Positions 416-15,929 of a DNA stretch of 28,269 nucleotides are shown piece after piece; within the stretch, counting starts at the first letter, position 1; each line of letters starts with the position of its first letter. The notes under the pieces were generated by a model. That model saw only the letters and a program-made list of their open reading frames with translations, did no database searches and was not told the DNA's origin. The position numbers and the translations under genes were made by a program. Origin of the DNA: a virus. Location of the stretch: positions 1 through 28,269 of the IMG/VR virus record IMGVR_UViG_3300035698_012584. One strand, given 5' to 3'.

Positions 416-1105
416 ATGAAAATGAAAATAAGTATTAAAGAATTTAAAAAAATTAGAAGGAGTTTGAACGAGTCTAGTTCAAGGGTCAATAGATTAAGTG
501 TAATATTGAATAATTTAAAAGGAATTAATCCAGATGAACTAATTAAAATGTATAATGAGTTAAATAATGGTGAACTATCAGAAAAGTTATATGACCTAAT
601 AATAACTCCTTCTTCTGGTAGGGATTATTATTATGATTATAAGTTTAAAGGTTTAATTAATAAAGCCCTAATTTCTTTAAAGAAAGTTTTAGTTAAACTC
701 GGTATTGATATGGATAGTGAGGATAGAAGAAAATCTTTCTTTGATGATATTTATAACGAAAATTCTCAATTGAATGATGATATTATAGGCCTAACACTTG
801 ACCTTAAAGAAGTTGATAATAACGAATTTAAACATTGGGCGGATGCTAGAAATTTTGTTGACAAATATAATGTAACTAAAAAATTTATAAACGTCCTCAA
901 AAAACTTCCAACTAAAGAAATTCTTTCACTTCAAAAGTCTGGTATGGATAGAATAGAATATAAAGATATACCGCATGATGAAAGTATTTATGTGGCCGGA
1001 AGAATTAGTACATTCACAAGTGAATATGCTGTAACTATCTTTGAATTTGGTAGTAATAATTCTTGGACGTTTAATGTAAGTGTTTCATCTTCAAATCGAA
1101 TTTAA
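416..1105 (+). CDS. putative internal head protein with capsid-targeting-like leader, 229 aa
   Basis: The function is unknown. The start at 416 is supported by an AGGGGA ribosome binding site about 10 bp upstream. The first 19 residues (MKMKISIKEFKKIRRSLNE) form a basic amphipathic leader ending in Leu-Asn-Glu before Ser-Ser-Ser. This matches the [LI]xE site cut by the T4 prohead protease gp21 in internal proteins and in Alt. A nearly identical leader begins the protein at 14269. The body is mainly charged helices, and the last 40 residues are rich in Ser, Thr and aromatic residues like a small beta domain. I infer packaging in the head from the leader only. No enzymatic motif is visible. Confidence 0.75.
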   Translation: MKMKISIKEFKKIRRSLNESSSRVNRLSVILNNLKGINPDELIKMYNELNNGELSEKLYDLIITPSSGRDYYYDYKFKGLINKALISLKKVLVKLGIDMDSEDRRKSFFDDIYNENSQLNDDIIGLTLDLKEVDNNEFKHWADARNFVDKYNVTKKFINVLKKLPTKEILSLQKSGMDRIEYKDIPHDESIYVAGRISTFTSEYAVTIFEFGSNNSWTFNVSVSSSNRI

Positions 1106-1122
1106 TATAAGAGAGGATAAAA

Positions 1123-1494
1123 ATGAGAATAAATACTATTTTAATGATAAAAGAGGCTTTATCGAATAAAGAATACGGAGCTTTAGTAAAAAAAGATCCA
1201 GAATTAAGAGGTTATGATGATTATCATAATAATGAAAAAAAACCGCTTACACCATCAGCTCATATTTTCAGGGGTTCAATGGAAGATTTATTAAACAAAA
1301 TTCAGAATACAGACGACCAAAAAGAAAAAGATAAGTTAACTGATTTGTTATTAAACAATGCTGATAATTATTCAAAAGAAATAAATAAAGAAAGTAATGA
1401 ATATAGAATGGTGATGAAAATAATAAATGAGGTTAAAAAAGATAAGAATTCTTTTAAATCTTATTTAAAAGACCAGATTAATAAAATAAACTAA
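1123..1494 (+). CDS. small basic protein with possible capsid-targeting leader, 123 aa
   Basis: No family is recognised. A GAGAGGAT ribosome binding site lies just upstream of the ATG. The amino terminus (MRINTILMIKEALSNK) has an Ile-Lys-Glu followed by Ala, which fits the prohead protease consensus less strikingly than in the neighbouring genes. The rest is Lys/Asn/Glu-rich and almost entirely helical in character, with a Lys-rich carboxy terminus. Spacing to the genes on both sides is 15-17 bp, so all are probably co-transcribed. Small, basic, helical proteins are typical of phage internal head proteins, but this assignment is inference from context. Confidence 0.7.
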   Translation: MRINTILMIKEALSNKEYGALVKKDPELRGYDDYHNNEKKPLTPSAHIFRGSMEDLLNKIQNTDDQKEKDKLTDLLLNNADNYSKEINKESNEYRMVMKIINEVKKDKNSFKSYLKDQINKIN

Positions 1495-1509
1495 TTAAGG
1501 ATTTTAAAA

Positions 1510-2283
1510 ATGATAAATCAATTTAAAAAATTTTTATTTGAAAGTCTTGAATCTGATGATAAACAATTAAAAGAAGCTGAATATGAATATAAAAAGATTA
1601 TTGACGTAATTAATAAATGGATAGAACCGGGTTATGACCCCAGAATAATAAAGTTTAGTAATGACACAATTGCTATACAAAGACCCGGATATTATTTAAT
1701 TATTGTTAACGATTCAGGGAGTAATTCGATAGGTAGTTATGGAAGACTTGCAAATGGAACTCCGGGAATAGAACTTAGATATAAGTTTGATGATATGGAA
1801 GGTGCTCTTGACGGAATAGTTTTTGAATACAGATCAGTTTTTATTCATGAATATATTCACCATTTAGATTATATTCGGGCCAATGATAAAATGCCGGCTT
1901 CAAGAATTGATGACCGTTCATTTAAAAGTTTAAGAAAATATCATTCATCCCCATCAGAATATAATGCTTGGTATCAAGAAACACTTCATATACATGAAGA
2001 TTTATTATATGATGTAATTACTAATCTGAGTAGTAATATTAAAAAGGGTGTTAAAACTAAAGAAGCAGCACTTAATATTATAACAAAAGCCTATAACCTA
2101 GATGATTATGAAAACTGGAGAGAATCCCTAAAGAACTGGCACCAAGTAGAAATGTTTTTAACTGATAAATATAATAAAAAATGGAATAGAAGATTATACA
2201 GATATTGGAAAAGCTTAATCCCCAGAATACAAAAAGCTTTTGATGAAGTTACGGAGGATTTTAAAAGTGATAAATCAATTTAA
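1510..2283 (+). CDS. HExxH metallopeptidase-like protein with capsid-targeting-like leader, 257 aa
   Basis: Residues 113-117 read HEYIH, followed by His-Leu-Asp, a classic zincin zinc-binding helix. About 33 residues on, SPSEYNAWYQE (148-158) offers Glu150 or Glu157 as the third ligand, as in gluzincin-type peptidases. Before the active-site helix lies a beta-rich region (44-95), as expected for the zincin fold. The amino terminus is a separate leader, MINQFKKFLFE followed by Ser, with a Leu-Phe-Glu site like those cut by T4-type prohead protease. The leader and ribosome binding site are repeated almost exactly at the next gene. I infer a peptidase carried in the head and perhaps injected. 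The substrate is unknown, and a non-catalytic structural role is possible. Confidence 0.75.
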   Translation: MINQFKKFLFESLESDDKQLKEAEYEYKKIIDVINKWIEPGYDPRIIKFSNDTIAIQRPGYYLIIVNDSGSNSIGSYGRLANGTPGIELRYKFDDMEGALDGIVFEYRSVFIHEYIHHLDYIRANDKMPASRIDDRSFKSLRKYHSSPSEYNAWYQETLHIHEDLLYDVITNLSSNIKKGVKTKEAALNIITKAYNLDDYENWRESLKNWHQVEMFLTDKYNKKWNRRLYRYWKSLIPRIQKAFDEVTEDFKSDKSI

Positions 2284-3241
2284 AAAATTTTTAAATAAAC
2301 AGTTGGATGAGTCCAGAAAAAATCCAGACTTAAATCCGAAAGTACCAGCGTACCAACAATTATTAAAATATAAAAATAATAAAGATATATTTATTTCATT
2401 TACTGGAATAAATAAACTTGGTATTAATCCGGACAGTGGGTTTGATACTCCTTTGGGAATTTATACATATCCATTAAAAGAAATTATTAAATCTTCATCT
2501 GAAAATGGCAGAGCATGGAAAAGTGAACAAAGATTGAATGTTCCTTATGCTGGAAATGCAAATTATATAAATATAATACAACTCAATAAAACAGCAGGAC
2601 GTTTTATTGATGATGCTTATAAATATAACTCAAAAGATTTTGATGATGATTTTGCTATATTATGCAAACTTTACGGTGATGGTCCAAAAATGTTATTGCA
2701 TGATGCAAAGACAGAAGCAAATATTAAAAACCCATTTGGCTATATGTGGTATATAACCTCTAAAATAGCTGAACATAAATTTCCAAATGATCGCACTAAA
2801 AAAATAACTTATTGGAATAAAATTTTTAGAAAAGATTTGGGTATTATTGGAGTTGCAGATAAGTTCGGTCAAGGTATAATTCATCAAGCTGAACCTATTC
2901 AAGCAGTATTTTTTAGTTTAACTGACTTAACTGTACTAGATAGAATTTTAAATAAAAATTATCAAGCTGAAAAAGATTTATTATATCTTAGTTTGAACAC
3001 AAATATAATAAGTAAAAAAAGAATAAATCCACTAACATACTTTCTTGAACTTAAGTTTGAAAAACGTCATGGATATGAAATTAAACAACTTGTTAAAAAA
3101 GCTTCGTTCAAATTAAAAACATTAACTAGTGATGATATTGCAGGAGCTGAAAATATTATAAATAATTTAGAGTCAACTATAAATAATATTGATAACACTA
3201 AAGTAAAAATTAAAAGACCAAAATTTGATAAAGGAGTTTAA
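2267..3241 (+). CDS. enzyme-like protein of unknown family with capsid-targeting-like leader, 324 aa
   Basis: The start is a GTG at 2267, placed by the GGAGG at 2253-2257 and by identity of its leader (MINQFKKFLNKQLDE then Ser) with that of the preceding gene. It overlaps that gene by 17 bp. An in-frame ATG at 2240 lies inside the previous gene and lacks this support. Conserved-looking blocks are IFISFT (41-46), LGINP (51-55), TPLGIYTYPL (61-70) and GIIHQAEPIQAVFF (203-216). The first blocks loosely recall the H-x-T ... G-x-Y layout of ADP-ribosyltransferases, and T4 Alt is such an enzyme packaged through the same kind of leader. The similarity is weak: the canonical His is absent (Ser at that place), so the function stays unassigned. 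Confidence 0.75.
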   Translation: MINQFKKFLNKQLDESRKNPDLNPKVPAYQQLLKYKNNKDIFISFTGINKLGINPDSGFDTPLGIYTYPLKEIIKSSSENGRAWKSEQRLNVPYAGNANYINIIQLNKTAGRFIDDAYKYNSKDFDDDFAILCKLYGDGPKMLLHDAKTEANIKNPFGYMWYITSKIAEHKFPNDRTKKITYWNKIFRKDLGIIGVADKFGQGIIHQAEPIQAVFFSLTDLTVLDRILNKNYQAEKDLLYLSLNTNIISKKRINPLTYFLELKFEKRHGYEIKQLVKKASFKLKTLTSDDIAGAENIINNLESTINNIDNTKVKIKRPKFDKGV

Positions 3242-3245
3242 TATA

Positions 3246-4220
3246 ATGGACAATAATACAATTAATAAACAATTCGGAGAATTAGCTTGGAAGAACGAAG
3301 CAGATAAATTAAGATCATTTATAAAAAAATATCAATATAAAATAACTTCAGACGAAGCAGACGAAGCTTATTTTAATTCAGCAAAACGTGGAAATACTGA
3401 AGTGATTGAAGTATTACTTGATACTGATTGGTGGAGTCCGAGCGGTGATTATAATAAGGCTATAGAAGTAGCAGTTTCTAACGGTGAGCTGGAAGTTGTA
3501 GAACTTTTATTAAATTCAAAAAACTTTAAACTTGGTTCAGCAAAAAATGATGTTATATGGGGTTTAATGAGAAATGAAACTCCGAAGGCTGTGGAATTAG
3601 TTAAATCAATAATAGAATGGGAAGAAGTTAAAGAAGATAACCATTTTAATCAATATTATATGCAGAATGTTAAAGACTGGTTAGAAAAACAAGATAATAA
3701 AGAACCAGAAAGTCAAGATGATGAATCTCCTGTTGATGATGGTTGGGAAGAAATGCCTTATTCATCTGAAGACTTTGAAAGTATAAAAACAAAAATTACA
3801 AAAATGATTGAAGATAATAGTTGGTTTGTTGAGGATGATAGTTCTGAAAATAATATAACTTTTGCATCAAGAGAATATGGTGATACTTATAATGAAAAAC
3901 CAGGAAAACGTGATAAAACTGAAGCAAATAAAATTATGTATAATTTAAAAGATTACTATCCAGATTTAGTAATAGTTGGTTCTACTGTTGATGAATGGGT
4001 TCAAGTTACAGTAAGAAATAAAAAAAATAATAAACCTGTTAATGAACAAAGACATACATGGAATATTTATGACCCAGAAAGACAGAAAAAAATAAGACAA
4101 AAAATAGACAAACAACTTAATAAAGATAAAGAAATTAAAACCGTTGAAGATAGATGGGTAAATTTAGTTGGTAAGGATTTAACTGAAGCTGTAAAAAAAT
4201 ATATTATAAAGAGGATATAA
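3246..4220 (+). CDS. ankyrin-repeat protein, 324 aa
   Basis: Residues 38-60 (DEAYFNSAKRGNTEVIEVLL) and 69-92 (KAIEVAVSNGELEVVELLL) are two clear ankyrin repeats, and degenerate helices on both sides (about 14-37 and 101-125) may extend the solenoid. An acidic linker (150-178) follows, then a mixed domain (180-260) and a basic carboxy terminus (260-324) rich in Lys and Arg. The start at 3246 has AAAGGAG about 9 bp upstream. An upstream in-frame ATG at 3225 lies inside the previous gene and is not preferred. Ankyrin repeats bind other proteins, so a host or virion partner is likely, but none can be named. Unlike its neighbours it lacks the basic leader. Confidence 0.8.
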   Translation: MDNNTINKQFGELAWKNEADKLRSFIKKYQYKITSDEADEAYFNSAKRGNTEVIEVLLDTDWWSPSGDYNKAIEVAVSNGELEVVELLLNSKNFKLGSAKNDVIWGLMRNETPKAVELVKSIIEWEEVKEDNHFNQYYMQNVKDWLEKQDNKEPESQDDESPVDDGWEEMPYSSEDFESIKTKITKMIEDNSWFVEDDSSENNITFASREYGDTYNEKPGKRDKTEANKIMYNLKDYYPDLVIVGSTVDEWVQVTVRNKKNNKPVNEQRHTWNIYDPERQKKIRQKIDKQLNKDKEIKTVEDRWVNLVGKDLTEAVKKYIIKRI

Positions 4221-4583
4221 ATGAAAATTCTAACTTTGATAAGGAATAATGCAAAAGGTATAAAATTACAATTATATGATGGAAATAATAATTTAATAGA
4301 TTTTACCGATTATACTTATGAAAATATTTTTTTAAAAGCAAAAAAAGAAGACGAACTTATTGAAACTGTTTATGCACTTAATATTACCGGATCACTTATG
4401 ACGGAAGGAACTTTAAATTGGATCTCTTTTGATTTTAATTCAACCATCTTTGATACATTAGATAATGATACATATATTTGTGAAGTTATTATAGAAAAGA
4501 CCCCATCTAGTTTTGTTAACGCCAACATAGATGGGACCAGAGAATATAGATTTAAATTAATTATAGTGGATAGTTTTATTTAA
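4221..4583 (+). CDS. probable baseplate/fibre beta-sandwich protein, 120 aa
   Basis: The ATG directly abuts the previous stop, with GAGGAT as ribosome binding site. The whole protein looks like a single beta-sandwich: alternating hydrophobic strands, an early LQLYDGNNNLIDFTDY strand pair, then a strand series ending in EYRFKLIIVDSFI. This pattern resembles the amino-terminal domain of BppU-type baseplate upper proteins found in many phages, where it anchors receptor-binding parts. That is a fold-level resemblance judged by eye, not a firm homology. Its last 8 bp overlap the convergent gene at 4576-5409. The coding region contains a strong RNA hairpin at 4502-4535. Confidence 0.65.
   Translation: MKILTLIRNNAKGIKLQLYDGNNNLIDFTDYTYENIFLKAKKEDELIETVYALNITGSLMTEGTLNWISFDFNSTIFDTLDNDTYICEVIIEKTPSSFVNANIDGTREYRFKLIIVDSFI
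4502..4535 (+). other. 12-bp bulged stem-loop inside a gene
   Basis: CCCATCTA (4502-4509) pairs perfectly with TAGATGGG (4528-4535). TGTT (4514-4517) then pairs with AACA (4524-4527) around the loop AACGCC, leaving a 4-nt bulge. There is no T-run after it, so it is not a normal intrinsic terminator. It sits about 50 bp before the stop of the 120-aa gene and the convergent gene end. Three G:C pairs at the base are unusual in such AT-rich DNA. Confidence 0.6.
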
Positions 4584-5409
4584 TTGGTTTAACTTCATCT
4601 GGAATATCGTAATCTTTAAATATCAATGATAAAAGAAAATTTTCTAATATATTTTCCAGTTTATTATAATATTTAAACTTACTAGTGATAATATAAGCAT
4701 ATAAACTTTCAAACGAATTCCAGTCTTTTTTCTGGAATTCGTTTCCCATAAAGAATTCCCAAATATAGTTCCAATCATTAGAAATAAACTCTTTATTTTT
4801 TATTTTAAAGTGCTTATTTAATATTTCCGGATTCACTTTATTCTTTCTTGAGGTTGTTTTAATAAATAATCCATCATCAGTTGAAATATATTGTTTATAT
4901 TCAACCAATTCATCTTTAATGTAAACTTCATCAAAAGCCAGTTCCTTTAAAATACTATAAAACAAATAATTTTTAATTAAAGATTTATATTTACTAGTAT
5001 TTTTTTCTGGTGCCCATTTGGTCAATTCGGCATAATCCAATCCAGCTTCAAAAAACATAAAATCTACTTGAACATAATGACCTTTATTTCCATATTGTTC
5101 AACCACAACTGACATAATTGTACCGAAATATTTTTTTTCTAGGTTCAGGTTCAGACAGTTAAACATCCAAGATAATACTTTTTTATCTACTGGATAGTTA
5201 GAAGTAAAACCCCATCTATTTTTAATTTCTTTCCAATCTAACCCAATATCCAAATCTCCTGAAGAAGAATCCTTTTTTAATGCGGATCCAAGCAATTGGT
5301 ACTTTCCGCCAGATATTTTTTTGATTATAGGTTCTACATTATATTTAAGTGTACCTTTAATATATTTCTGTTCAATTGGTTCTACATTTTTAAACGCATT
5401 ACCACCCAT
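4576..5409 (-). CDS. nucleotidyltransferase-like protein, 277 aa
   Basis: The protein has the signature of the polymerase-beta nucleotidyltransferase fold: Gly41-Ser42 (LLGSALK), then Asp52-Leu-Asp54 in GDLDIGLDWK, and a third acidic residue at about Asp116 in HYVQVDFMF. The amino terminus MGGNAFKN resembles a group of phage and giant-virus NTases that start with MGG-x-AF. Substrate (RNA, protein or small molecule) is not predictable. It is the last gene of a leftward three-gene operon. GGAGG lies just upstream, at the end of the preceding gene, which suggests translational coupling. The reading frame contains a perfect 13-bp palindrome at 4711-4744. A catalytic role is likely since all three acidic residues are present. 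Confidence 0.8.
   Translation of the reverse strand: MGGNAFKNVEPIEQKYIKGTLKYNVEPIIKKISGGKYQLLGSALKKDSSSGDLDIGLDWKEIKNRWGFTSNYPVDKKVLSWMFNCLNLNLEKKYFGTIMSVVVEQYGNKGHYVQVDFMFFEAGLDYAELTKWAPEKNTSKYKSLIKNYLFYSILKELAFDEVYIKDELVEYKQYISTDDGLFIKTTSRKNKVNPEILNKHFKIKNKEFISNDWNYIWEFFMGNEFQKKDWNSFESLYAYIITSKFKYYNKLENILENFLLSLIFKDYDIPDEVKPIK
4711..4744. repeat. perfect 13-bp inverted repeat with 8-nt loop
   Basis: AAACGAATTCCAG at 4711-4723 is the exact reverse complement of CTGGAATTCGTTT at 4732-4744, with loop TCTTTTTT. It lies within the nucleotidyltransferase-like gene, so its mRNA would carry a 13-bp stem. It is not followed by a T-run on either strand, so it is not a standard terminator. Confidence 0.85.
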
Positions 5410-8244: not shown

Positions 8245-8408
8245 AATAGATATGGGATCTGTATATTAAATTCAGTACAGTAAACTACAGTATAGTTCCA
8301 ATAAGATATAGTATAAGTAAGACCAGAATGATTTTTATTCAATAGGTCTATATTTGACTGTATTAGATTTTTAAACTTCGCGGTACGCGATTTTGTATTA
8401 GTTTTCCT
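8245..8408 (-). other. gene-free region downstream of orphan early promoter B
   Basis: No convincing open frame with a ribosome binding site exists on either strand here. Leftward transcription from promoter B would begin near 8408 and cross the GC hairpin. It would then cross AGACC...GGTCT, a stem with an inner GAAT/ATTC pairing (about 8313-8347), and a stretch with the direct repeat TACAGTA. These features could form a small structured RNA, or be the remains of a lost gene. Confidence 0.3.
8378..8398 (+). terminator. probable intrinsic terminator after the tail spike
   Basis: TCGCG (8378-8382), loop GTA, CGCGA (8386-8390), followed by TTTTGTAT. The stem is nearly all G:C in AT-rich DNA. 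The T-run lies on the + strand side, so it should end rightward transcription of the spike unit 134 bp after its stop. Confidence 0.55.
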
Positions 8409-8414
8409 TATTTA

Positions 8415-8444
8415 ATTATACCCCATTTTATTAAATTTGTACAA
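8415..8444 (-). promoter_or_regulatory. early-type promoter B (leftward, no gene downstream)
   Basis: TTGTAC (8439-8444), 18 bp, TATAAT (8415-8420) followed by TAAATA. It also carries the upstream block GGTACAATGGTCCTTTAAAA shared with promoter D. No gene lies downstream before the convergent tail-spike gene. Confidence 0.75.
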
Positions 8445-8470
8445 TTAATTTTAAAGGACCATTGTACCTT

Positions 8471-8809: not shown

Positions 8810-8832
8810 GATGTACCTCCGTGGATTTTTAT

Positions 8833-8859
8833 TTACTCACTCTTACTATTTAATTATAC
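8833..8859. repeat. 27-bp direct repeat, copy 1 (early leader)
   Basis: Identical to 9582-9608. It covers the -10 box and the first part of the transcript leader. Similarity continues, less perfectly, through the ribosome binding site (CGGAGGTA). Confidence 0.85.
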
Positions 8860-8881
8860 GCTATATTCATTATTTTGTAAA
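8853..8881 (-). promoter_or_regulatory. early-type promoter C (leftward)
   Basis: TTTACA (8876-8881), 17 bp, TATAAT (8853-8858) then TAAATAGTAAGAGTGAGTAA. The upstream sequence GGTATGTGGTTC and AAATAAA corresponds to the block in B and D. It drives the 112-aa gene. Confidence 0.75.
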
Positions 8882-8907
8882 ATTTATTTTAGAACCACAT
8901 ACCCATT

Positions 8908-9121: not shown

Positions 9122-9553
9122 TTATTTTAATAATTCTTTTAATTCATTTCTTAATTCTTCATTACTTTTAAGTTCTTTTTTGAATGTTGACCAATTTGCC
9201 ATTTCAATATGTTTTGTAAATTCACATTTATCATTCAGTGCAAAAAATTCTAATTGATCTTTAATATAGTCATCAGTTTCAATTGAAATAGCACCTTTAA
9301 ATTTATCTTTTGAAATTGAAGAAAATGAAACTTGATTTCTTCCACCATCACAATTTTTAAACCAAATATAAGTATCATCTGGATCGATTATTCCTAATTT
9401 CACCATTAATTTAACTTTTGGGAATAAACTTCTTGCGATTCTTTCTAAAGATTTGTCTTTACAAAACCAATCGTAAAAACTCCAACAGTTATCGTTGTTT
9501 AAAATATTTTTGTCATTACTTTCCATAATTTCTCTTATTGATTTTCTATTCAT
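9122..9553 (-). CDS. hypothetical early protein, 143 aa
   Basis: The ATG at 9553 is chosen because CGGAGG lies 8 bp upstream. An in-frame GTG at 9589 would lie within the duplicated leader and translate through the ribosome binding site. The protein has a Trp/Phe/Cys-rich segment (NCWSFYDWFCKDKSLERIA), a basic middle and a Glu/Leu-rich helix at the end. Its start, MNRKSIREIMES, also contains an Ile-x-Glu-Ser site, but it is transcribed as an early gene, so head targeting is doubtful. No family is recognised. Confidence 0.7.
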   Translation of the reverse strand: MNRKSIREIMESNDKNILNNDNCWSFYDWFCKDKSLERIARSLFPKVKLMVKLGIIDPDDTYIWFKNCDGGRNQVSFSSISKDKFKGAISIETDDYIKDQLEFFALNDKCEFTKHIEMANWSTFKKELKSNEELRNELKELLK

Positions 9554-9581
9554 TTTGTTACCTCCGTTGGATTCTTTTTTC

Positions 9582-9608
9582 TTACTCACTCTTACTATTT
9601 AATTATAC
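9582..9608. repeat. 27-bp direct repeat, copy 2 (early leader)
   Basis: Second copy of the element at 8833-8859, at the start of the transcript from promoter D. The two copies imply duplication of a promoter-leader cassette. Confidence 0.85.
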
Positions 9609-9631
9609 CTTGTTTCTACCTTTTTGTACAA
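9602..9631 (-). promoter_or_regulatory. early-type promoter D (leftward)
   Basis: TTGTAC (9626-9631), 18 bp, TATAAT (9602-9607) followed by TAAATA. The upstream block GGTACTTTGGTCTTTTAAAT matches promoter B. It drives the genes at 9553 and 9099. Confidence 0.8.
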
Positions 9632-9664
9632 TTTATTTAAAAGACCAAAGTACCTAATATAGGG

Positions 9665-13731: not shown

Positions 13732-13983
13732 ATGCAAATGAAAATAGAAAAAATGATGATAAATAATATCAAGTCTAGATTGAAAGAATCTTATTTACAA
13801 GAAGCAAGGTATACATTGAAAGGAAAAAATATTGAAAGATTATCTGACGGATTGAACGGAAATATTGTCGGAGAAGAATTATACGGAAAAGGTTATAGAA
13901 TAGAATGGGCAAATGGTAAAACCCAAAAACTTGGAAGGAGTACAATTTTAAATCAAAAAAGATATACAATTACGGATAAATAA
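13732..13983 (+). CDS. small protein with capsid-targeting-like leader, 83 aa
   Basis: A GAGGAG ribosome binding site precedes the ATG. The first 19 residues are a basic Met/Ile/Lys-rich leader ending RLKE before Ser, and a second LQE before Ala follows six residues later. Both fit the [LI]xE prohead protease consensus. The body (about 27-83) looks like a small beta barrel: TLKGKNIERLSDG, then YGKGYRIEWANGKTQKLGRS. I infer an internal head protein whose mature form may be only about 57 residues. No family is recognised. Confidence 0.7.
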   Translation: MQMKIEKMMINNIKSRLKESYLQEARYTLKGKNIERLSDGLNGNIVGEELYGKGYRIEWANGKTQKLGRSTILNQKRYTITDK

Positions 13984-14249: not shown

Positions 14250-14268
14250 TTAAGGAGAATAATATTAA

Positions 14269-14679
14269 ATGAAAACTAAAATTAGTATCAAAGAATTTAA
14301 AATAAGAAGCTTAAAAGAAACAATAACAAGAAACCAGTTGGATAAATTGGAAGTTTATTTAGACGCATTATTTAATAATGTTGGACTTGACATTAATTTT
14401 ACTTCACATTTTATAGATAGAGTTAATGATGAAAGAAATGGCAAACCAATTCATCTTGGCGAATTAGCTGACATATTCCAAATGCTATATAAAAAACATG
14501 GTGATAAAATAAAATCTATAGGTGATAAAGGCGAAGCAGTTTTGAAACAAATTCAAACTGATATTAATATACCTTTTGTTTTAAACTATGATAGAAGAAA
14601 TAACGAATTTGATTTTATAAGTAAAACCGTAATGAGAAAAAAGAATTTTAAATCTTATAATCCAACCGTTGCCGTATAA
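14269..14679 (+). CDS. conserved phage protein with capsid-targeting-like leader, 136 aa
   Basis: The leader MKTKISIKEFKIRSLKE before Thr is nearly the same as that of the protein at 416 and contains an LKE site. The body carries SHFIDRVNDERNGKPIHLGE (46-65), then ADIFQMLYKKHGDKI, then QTDINIPFVLNYD (94-106) and KTVMRKKNFK (117-126). I recognise this layout (HFxDRVND-R, NIPFV, K-TxMRKxNFK) from proteins of many T4-like phages, but no function is known to me. Head packaging is inferred from the leader. The many basic residues and the HFxDR motif would suit nucleic-acid binding. Confidence 0.75.
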   Translation: MKTKISIKEFKIRSLKETITRNQLDKLEVYLDALFNNVGLDINFTSHFIDRVNDERNGKPIHLGELADIFQMLYKKHGDKIKSIGDKGEAVLKQIQTDINIPFVLNYDRRNNEFDFISKTVMRKKNFKSYNPTVAV

Positions 14680-14690
14680 AGGAGAAAATA

Positions 14691-15929
14691 ATGAATATTT
14701 TAGAAACTATATATAAAGGGGAATGGGCTTCATTTTTAAAAGATAGAACTTTCGGGTACGAGTTTTTGATTGCTCATAGACAAGCGGTGTTTGTTTTGGC
14801 TGTAATAGATGGAGAAAAAATTATAATCAGAAAAGAACCCGTTCCCGCATTTCATTATTTTAATAATAACGGAGAACTTTTACCAGAACAAGAAATGGAT
14901 CAATATTATACTCTTCCGGGTGGTGGAGTCGAATTGGATTTAGAACACATTGAAAATATGTCGGACGCTCATTATAAAGAAATTATTTTGGATAATGCTG
15001 AAAGAGAATTATATGAAGAATCTGGTATAAAATTAATAAATAAATCCTTTGGAGATCTTGATCGAGAACACAGACTTAAATTAATAGGTCCAATGTTTGA
15101 CTCTAAAATGAATACATTTAAAGTTTCTTATATTTTAGTTTATTTAAATTCTGATGAAATAGAAATTAAGATACCACCAACAGACGGAACCAAAGGTGAA
15201 AAAGTTTCTAAGAATTATATGTTACCAATAACAAAAGAAAATTTAACTGATATTAGAGAAATGGGTGATATTGGTATAAACCTTTTAGTTTCTGAATTAG
15301 AAAACGATTTAAAATTTGAATTTCATGAAAATAAATATAAAGATATTGTAAATGAAAAACTAATAATGTTAGAACAATCAGCTGGATCCGAATTTTCTTT
15401 ATTACTCGGAAGGTTCCAACCATTTACTAATGGTCATTTGAAATTAATAAAAGAATTATTAAGTAAAACAAATTCTACTATAATTATTGGTGTTGTTGAA
15501 GGAAAAAAATCTTCACAGGATAAGGAAAAAAATCCACTGAATTTTCAACAGAGATCCCAACTAATTAGTCAAGCATTAGATAAGGAAAATATTCCATATA
15601 TCGTAATGAAATTTGAAGATGGATATTTACCAACTATAATTGAAACTATAAATAATAATATGGGTAAGGTAAAAAGATTATTCATGAGTGCCGGATCAGA
15701 TCGAATTGAAACCTACACTAGATTATTAAATAAAGCTAAAGAAACTAATGAAGATCTTGAGTATGAACTTGTTGAAATAGAAAGAGGTGATGAAGCAATT
15801 TCCGCCACAAAAGTTAGAGATGCAATTAAATCAGATGATTATGAATTCTACAAACAAAATGTTCCGATCGGAATTCAATCATTGGATACATTTGAAAAAC
15901 TCAAGGGGATTTTATTATTCAATGACTAA
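14691..15929 (+). CDS. bifunctional Nudix hydrolase / NMN adenylyltransferase, 412 aa
   Basis: Two enzyme domains are visible. Residues about 27-205 are a Nudix hydrolase: PGGGVEL (76-82), a short insertion, then AERELYEESGI (103-113), the REx-EE-G core of the Nudix box. Residues about 235-412 are a nicotinamide-nucleotide adenylyltransferase: LLLGRFQPFTNGH (237-249) with the (H/T)xGH-type site and ISATKVR (370-376) matching the family ISxTxxR motif. NMNAT makes NAD from NMN and ATP. The Nudix partner typically cleaves ADP-ribose or NADH. Some T4-like phages carry NMNAT-Nudix fusions for NAD salvage. Here Nudix comes first. The next gene overlaps it by 8 bp. Confidence 0.88.
   Translation: MNILETIYKGEWASFLKDRTFGYEFLIAHRQAVFVLAVIDGEKIIIRKEPVPAFHYFNNNGELLPEQEMDQYYTLPGGGVELDLEHIENMSDAHYKEIILDNAERELYEESGIKLINKSFGDLDREHRLKLIGPMFDSKMNTFKVSYILVYLNSDEIEIKIPPTDGTKGEKVSKNYMLPITKENLTDIREMGDIGINLLVSELENDLKFEFHENKYKDIVNEKLIMLEQSAGSEFSLLLGRFQPFTNGHLKLIKELLSKTNSTIIIGVVEGKKSSQDKEKNPLNFQQRSQLISQALDKENIPYIVMKFEDGYLPTIIETINNNMGKVKRLFMSAGSDRIETYTRLLNKAKETNEDLEYELVEIERGDEAISATKVRDAIKSDDYEFYKQNVPIGIQSLDTFEKLKGILLFND

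Follow-up and report, generated by a model that had tools for sequence, protein, structure and literature searches.

Re-used capsid-targeting-like leaders on candidate internal head proteins encoded by a T4-superfamily phage contig

We describe a set of phage genes whose short N-terminal leaders resemble those of the internal proteins of T4. The analyzed stretch of DNA (the window) is an entire virus contig record of 28,269 bases, and our conclusions on the phage's own genome apply to this 28-kb fragment. Genes are named here by their start positions, and a slash marks the predicted cut at the end of a leader. Leader DNA recurs in front of unrelated bodies, homology begins just past the predicted cut in three protein families, and one of the bodies carries a conserved metallopeptidase motif. 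In our judgment, it is quite probable that these genes encode T4-superfamily internal head proteins, which would be targeted by their propeptides, cleaved by a gp21-type protease, packaged, and carried into the next host with the DNA. Owing to the re-use of leader DNA, the homology boundaries and the proteases of relatives, this T4-style reading is well supported for 416, 1510, 2267 and 14269 and weaker for 1123.

The phage and its leader-bearing genes

The window encodes matches to the T4-type core proteins gp44 and gp62 (clamp loader), gp47 (SbcD-like), gp4 (head closure), gp48 (tube cap), gp53 (wedge), gp5 (hub/lysozyme) and TerL (large terminase), which places the phage in the T4 superfamily. 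Since its terminase shares at most ~39% identity with that of any named phage, we assign it to a deep branch of this superfamily. The GC content is ~27%.

Several other elements of the window were recorded. An ankyrin-repeat protein without a leader is encoded at 3246-4220, directly 3' of the cargo cluster. The minus-strand gene at 4576-5409 encodes a protein with a GS...GDLDI motif that resembles nucleotidyltransferases, and a similar motif is present in gene 107131 of the phage immuto. A 64-nt repeat occurs three times (8388-8451, 8826-8889 and 9575-9638, with 66-81% identity) between short minus-strand genes and probably represents their promoters. The sequence TATAAATA has 21 occurrences against 11.4 expected, several of them immediately upstream of genes (6389, 12571, 20024, 22527, 23371 and others), and ATAAATAATATTAA is found in three exact copies and in six copies with at most one mismatch (0.8 expected). 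These sites are likely T4-type late promoters.

Table 1. Leaders, duplicated cassettes and candidate cargo genes in the window
Feature	Position	Strand	Description
Cargo candidate 1	416..1105	+	229 aa
Leader 1	416..472	+	MKMKISIKEFKKIRRSLNE/, 19 aa, then SSS; body of 210 aa, unknown family
Cargo candidate 2	1123..1494	+	123 aa
Leader 2	1123..1155	+	MRINTILMIKE/, 11 aa, then ALS
Cassette copy 1	1498..1536	+	Ribosome site, start and first nine leader codons (MINQFKKFL); direct repeat D5
Cargo candidate 3	1510..2283	+	257 aa; putative zinc metallopeptidase, HEYIHHLD and P-x-EYNAxYQE
Leader 3	1510..1542	+	MINQFKKFLFE/, 11 aa, then SLE
HExxH through PxEYNAxYQE	1846..1980	+	Conserved motifs in the 1510 family
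Cassette copy 2	2255..2293	+	38/39 nt identical to 1498-1536; overlaps the 3' end of the preceding gene (1510)
Cargo candidate 4	2267..3241	+	324 aa; INKLGINP...TPLGIYxYP and IIHxxEPxQA motifs
Leader 4	2267..2311	+	MINQFKKFLNKQLDE/, 15 aa, GTG start, then SRK
Possible further candidate	9122..9553	-	MNRKSIREIME/SND, opposite strand
Extra candidate	13732..13983	+	83-aa protein, leader MQMKIEKMMINNIKSRLKE/, 19 aa
Extra candidate	14269..14679	+	Widespread phage domain behind a 17-aa leader, MKTKISIKEFKIRSLKE/

A sequence-only reading had proposed leaders on the four adjacent genes at 416, 1123, 1510 and 2267, and all four are present as claimed (Table 1). Each consists of 11-19 basic and hydrophobic residues with [LI]xE at the end and Ser or Ala behind it, which corresponds to the N-terminal propeptide of ~10-19 residues with a terminal [LI]xE known from T4 internal proteins. 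Ribosome-site-like sequence lies upstream of all four starts. At least two more leaders, those of 13732 and 14269, can be added from the same window.

Six of the 38 window ORFs satisfied a strict leader definition (net charge of at least +2, [LI]xE followed by S, A or T, and the Glu at residues 7-22), against 0.40 with shuffled N-termini and 0.04 at internal positions. This count is given little weight because the definition was set after the window had been seen; in T4, the same definition selected 1/257, without enrichment. Genome-wide counts by regular expression showed no excess over chance in T4 and phiM12, and since they do not separate these phages from chance, they are not part of our main evidence. 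An independent leader profile, trained on other phages, placed 1510, 14269, 416 and 2267 at ranks 1, 4, 5 and 6 of 39; ranks 2 and 3 went to two probably unrelated genes, and 1123 was not among the top 14. With no place in this ranking and no relatives found, 1123 is the weakest of the four, and for this gene alone chance may be sufficient.

Leader DNA shared by genes with unrelated bodies

An unbiased repeat search recovered two dispersed repeats placed exactly on leader starts. One of them is the cassette shared by 1510 and 2267, in which the single mismatch converts ATG to GTG. The other comprises 43 nt at 410-452 that recur at 14263-14305 with 86% identity and correspond to the leader DNA of 416 and 14269. 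Because the 1510/2267 repeat stops before the cleavage site, the copied part comprises the ribosome site and the targeting half of the leader.

We compared gene starts (18 nt upstream plus 60 nt) for all pairs within each genome. Only 2/741 window pairs, 1510/2267 and 416/14269, scored 19 or more, and the bodies behind the shared leaders have no similarity within either pair; related leaders thus stand on unrelated bodies, as a modular arrangement demands. In the control, with non-overlapping windows placed at internal ATGs, the maximum score was 15 and none of the 3,626 pairs reached 19. When the scan was run blind on T4, IPII and IPIII, both known capsid-targeted proteins, came out on top, again with unrelated bodies; second was the pair of Alt and its truncated paralogue. 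Marine phage contigs supplied 16,873 pairs, in which MLINDIINE/ was the only start shared by unrelated bodies.

In Flavobacterium phage immuto (MW353175.1), the same scan recovered genes beginning with MENFDLKKFLVE/. Start variants of MENFDLKKFLVE precede different bodies at 1803, 103806, 117631 and 118632. They form a further family of leaders that has been re-used, here in a phage that is in culture and encodes a gp21-type protease.

The DNA-level duplication is the best evidence for the leaders and is independent of the strict definition. Together with the family-wide position of the motif, it speaks against the view that the leaders are merely AT-rich, basic N-termini with a fortuitous LxE; in spite of the shortness of the motif and the lack of a genome-wide excess in T4 and phiM12, we regard this view as very improbable.

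Homology boundaries and cargo bodies

The leaders of 1510, 2267 and 14269 are separable from their bodies, as homology to relatives starts past the predicted cut. In the 2267 family, the sequence behind the cut is conserved and the leader is not: relative L141 reads MKLVELFE/ARKNPELNPRLSAYEQLL where the window protein reads MINQFKKFLNKQLDE/SRKNPDLNPKVPAYQQLL, and MKLVELFE/ARKNPELNPRLSAYEQLLEYK likewise stands against SRKNPDLNPKVPAYQQLLKYK. An [LI]xE is found in 6/7 members of this family (1.8 expected by shuffling, P 0.0005). Leaders in the 1510 family likewise differ in both length and sequence, with MKLTHLFE/A, MKSFEQYISE/A, MSLARQLYE/A, MNVMELFQQNLTE/L and MKLEQLFE/D. All 12 tested members of the 1510 family have [LIMFVY]xE with the Glu at residues 7-17, where 3.9 were expected by shuffling and 0/2,000 shuffles reached 12.

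In relatives of 14269, the shared domain stands behind leaders that include MKSFKEHLTE/E, MIKLTHIINE/Y and the 17-residue MKTFKKFCTNTITVLDE/D; part of this family begins otherwise, with starts of the MRITEVDK type, which counts against the T4-style reading. Close to 14269, the gene at 14691-15929 encodes a Nudix-like domain fused to a cytidylyltransferase/NMN adenylyltransferase-like domain. A similar protein bears a leader itself in Melnitz and L007; the L007 protein is joined, in addition, to a 14269-type domain.

In all three families, the variable leader thus ends in xE where the homology starts. This recurrent Glu at the boundary is not accounted for if the N-termini serve targeting or expression in some other way, be it as a membrane-binding amphipathic helix or as a good translation start that was copied, and neither is the equal signature at T4 IPII/IPIII. 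The leaders are indeed basic and amphipathic, and the duplicated DNA does contain a ribosome site, but we consider this explanation improbable.

No relatives were found for the bodies of 416 and 1123, and a single-sequence scan for relatives of 1510 and 2267 was likewise empty; relatives of the latter two were recovered only after alignment with gp462 of Salicola phage SCTP-2 and with L135. The suggestion that one of the bodies is peptidase-like was borne out by the 1510 family, in which an alignment of 12 sequences (A7) has invariant H113, E114, H117, E150, N152 and A153, i.e., an HExxH motif and a candidate for the further acidic ligand (E150). The 1510 body matched no Pfam family above the cut-off and no PHROG; the Pfam matches of the 416, 1123 and 1510 bodies all fell below the cut-off and were judged to be chance. 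In the structure model of 1510 (pLDDT 79.5), a long helix starts directly past the predicted cut, and a fold search returned weak matches only, including IrrE (3dti) and 8s5f, most of them helical-bundle noise. From its conserved residues, we regard the 1510 body as a putative HExxH zinc metallopeptidase of an uncatalogued family.

The 2267 protein of the window had no Pfam or PHROG match, and its model (pLDDT 67.9) had no PDB match at E <= 0.001. The order of its motifs brought up an ADP-ribosyltransferase as a candidate; the fold search with this model gave no match and the assignment is not claimed. The 2267 family has not been described previously.

Prohead proteases, virion proteins and known cargo systems

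As a check on the T4-style reading, the genome was to be inspected for a gp21-like protease gene. None was found within the 28-kb window, nor was a capsid or core gene, but all six records of at least 190 kb among the relatives of 1510 and 2267 (SCTP-2, G017, G018, G026, G029 and G035; 190-561 kb) encode a gp21-type protease; the relatives of 14269 are mostly short contigs. The protease (PF03420) was also found in T4, phiM12, Melnitz and immuto, and gp21 is counted among the core genes conserved in T4-related phages (PMC9026906). The protease gene of the window phage would sit outside the fragment. In addition, two Peptidase_S77-like matches lie in the 50-kb contig G031, which contains L155: one is below the cut-off, and the second falls in an open frame of 572 aa that resembles a 559-aa frame of G026. 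Both frames may be fused prohead proteases.

Leader-like starts are present in immuto on gp21 (MNNPLLINVTPFKGLLTE/), on the core-like protein 125626 (MSNKDLLKQAIAE/) and on gp23 (MELNQLFE/). Core and shell proteins of relatives thus bear the same type of start, which fits an alternative in which the leaders do target the capsid, whereas the bodies are not injected effectors and instead act within the prohead, in the core or scaffold, in head size or in maturation proteolysis (compare T4 gp67/gp68). A maturation role is also conceivable for a metallopeptidase. Unlike head core genes, however, the bodies are highly variable among phages and patchily distributed, no relatives turned up for two of the four, and the cargo genes of the window do not adjoin head genes. 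We therefore consider a purely prohead role unlikely, though it is the strongest of the alternatives, and prefer internal head proteins that would leave with the DNA.

We found no virion proteomics in the literature for the window phage or for carriers of its bodies, and turned to the published virion proteome of phage CBB (PMC5259590). Leader-bearing genes more often encoded virion proteins (11/25 versus 18/128). The P value of 0.001 obtained at first was partly due to the MLPFPR paralogous group; after this one group had been collapsed, P was 0.03 overall and 0.16 in the part not used for setting the definition, so that the enrichment weakly supports the leader reading. In CBB (KU574722.1), an N-terminus of the MLPFPRLxEY type is common to the structural proteins CBB_247, 536, 548, 549, 550 and 551; it probably serves structural attachment rather than capsid targeting.

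The sequence-only reading had given MKTYQEFIAE as the leader of T4 internal proteins and Alt. This holds for IPII and IPIII, but Alt begins with MELITELFDE and IPI has its own leader of 19 residues. The first ten residues of T4 IPIII suffice for packaging; within the leader, residues 4 and 7 serve mainly targeting, and residues 8 and 10 serve processing past L/I-x-E (PMC9026906). When the leaders are aligned by the cut, aromatic residues fall at -7 and -4 in MINQFKKFLFE, matching Y4 and F7 of MKTYQEFIAE, and both 416 and 14269 have IKEF at the position of FKEF in IPI, whose leader they also resemble in length. The window genes share with IPI, IPII and IPIII a short basic and hydrophobic propeptide with an [LI]xE end, and with IPII/IPIII the combination of common leader DNA and unrelated bodies. 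They differ from the T4 internal proteins in that their bodies are unrelated to these, several genes are adjacent with others elsewhere, and they are known from sequence only.

Alt, too, is a head protein of enzyme size that bears an N-terminal propeptide and is injected with the DNA, but it is an ADP-ribosyltransferase with its own leader, and we found no match to it among the window bodies. Outside the superfamily, the ejection proteins of phiKZ and SPN3US are head-packaged, processed by a prohead protease and delivered to the host (PMC9026906), and P1 DarA/DarB are likewise packaged in the head and delivered to the host (PMC9024508); these belong to other phage lineages, and no common sequence was seen. 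Polyvalent proteins are predicted injected effectors that include zincin-like metallopeptidases and lie near late genes (Iyer et al. 2017, PMC5512222), but they are multidomain, while the window proteins are smaller, with T4-type leaders and no Pfam match above the cut-off. The open literature covers the T4 capsid-targeting sequence and its uses, and within it we found no cargo catalogue beyond close T4 relatives, phiKZ-type giants and P1. Such a system has a precedent in T4; what is new here is the cargo and how far it extends.

In the mechanism that we propose, the N-terminal half of the leader (e.g., MINQFKKF, with hydrophobic residues three apart, as at residues 4 and 7 in T4) would bind the assembling prohead core. 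A gp21-type prohead protease would then remove the propeptide at [LI]xE/ before DNA packaging, and the mature bodies would remain among the packaged DNA and be ejected with it into the next host. The leader would act as a portable module, its targeting half and ribosome site being copied from gene to gene before unrelated bodies. The earlier proposal of a modular, capsid-targeted cargo gains support from the re-use of leaders, the start of homology after the Glu and the gp21-type proteases of relatives.

T4 IPI* counters a host restriction enzyme, and T4 Alt takes over the host. By analogy, possible roles for the bodies are anti-defense (as for IPI*), host takeover (as for Alt) or work inside the head, and to see in them an arsenal, i.e., a set of candidate effectors, is plausible. 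More tentatively, T4-superfamily phages, including giants of 440-560 kb, may share a large uncatalogued head cargo tagged by such leaders, with a conserved HExxH metallopeptidase family injected as infection starts, and assembled by copying of the ribosome site and the targeting half of the leader.

Outside T4, cargo of this sort has been difficult to detect, since conservation is confined to the short leader. Two signatures that can be read without knowledge of the cargo, namely DNA-duplicated starts before unrelated bodies and a homology boundary past [LI]xE, offer a way to it, and the former recovers the known T4 pair. Applied widely, both signatures would yield a list of candidate anti-defense and host-takeover proteins, beginning with the metallopeptidase family absent from Pfam and PHROG. 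They also suggest how phages recruit new cargo: as the targeting half of the leader is copied between genes, new cargo would be recruited by acquisition of a leader.
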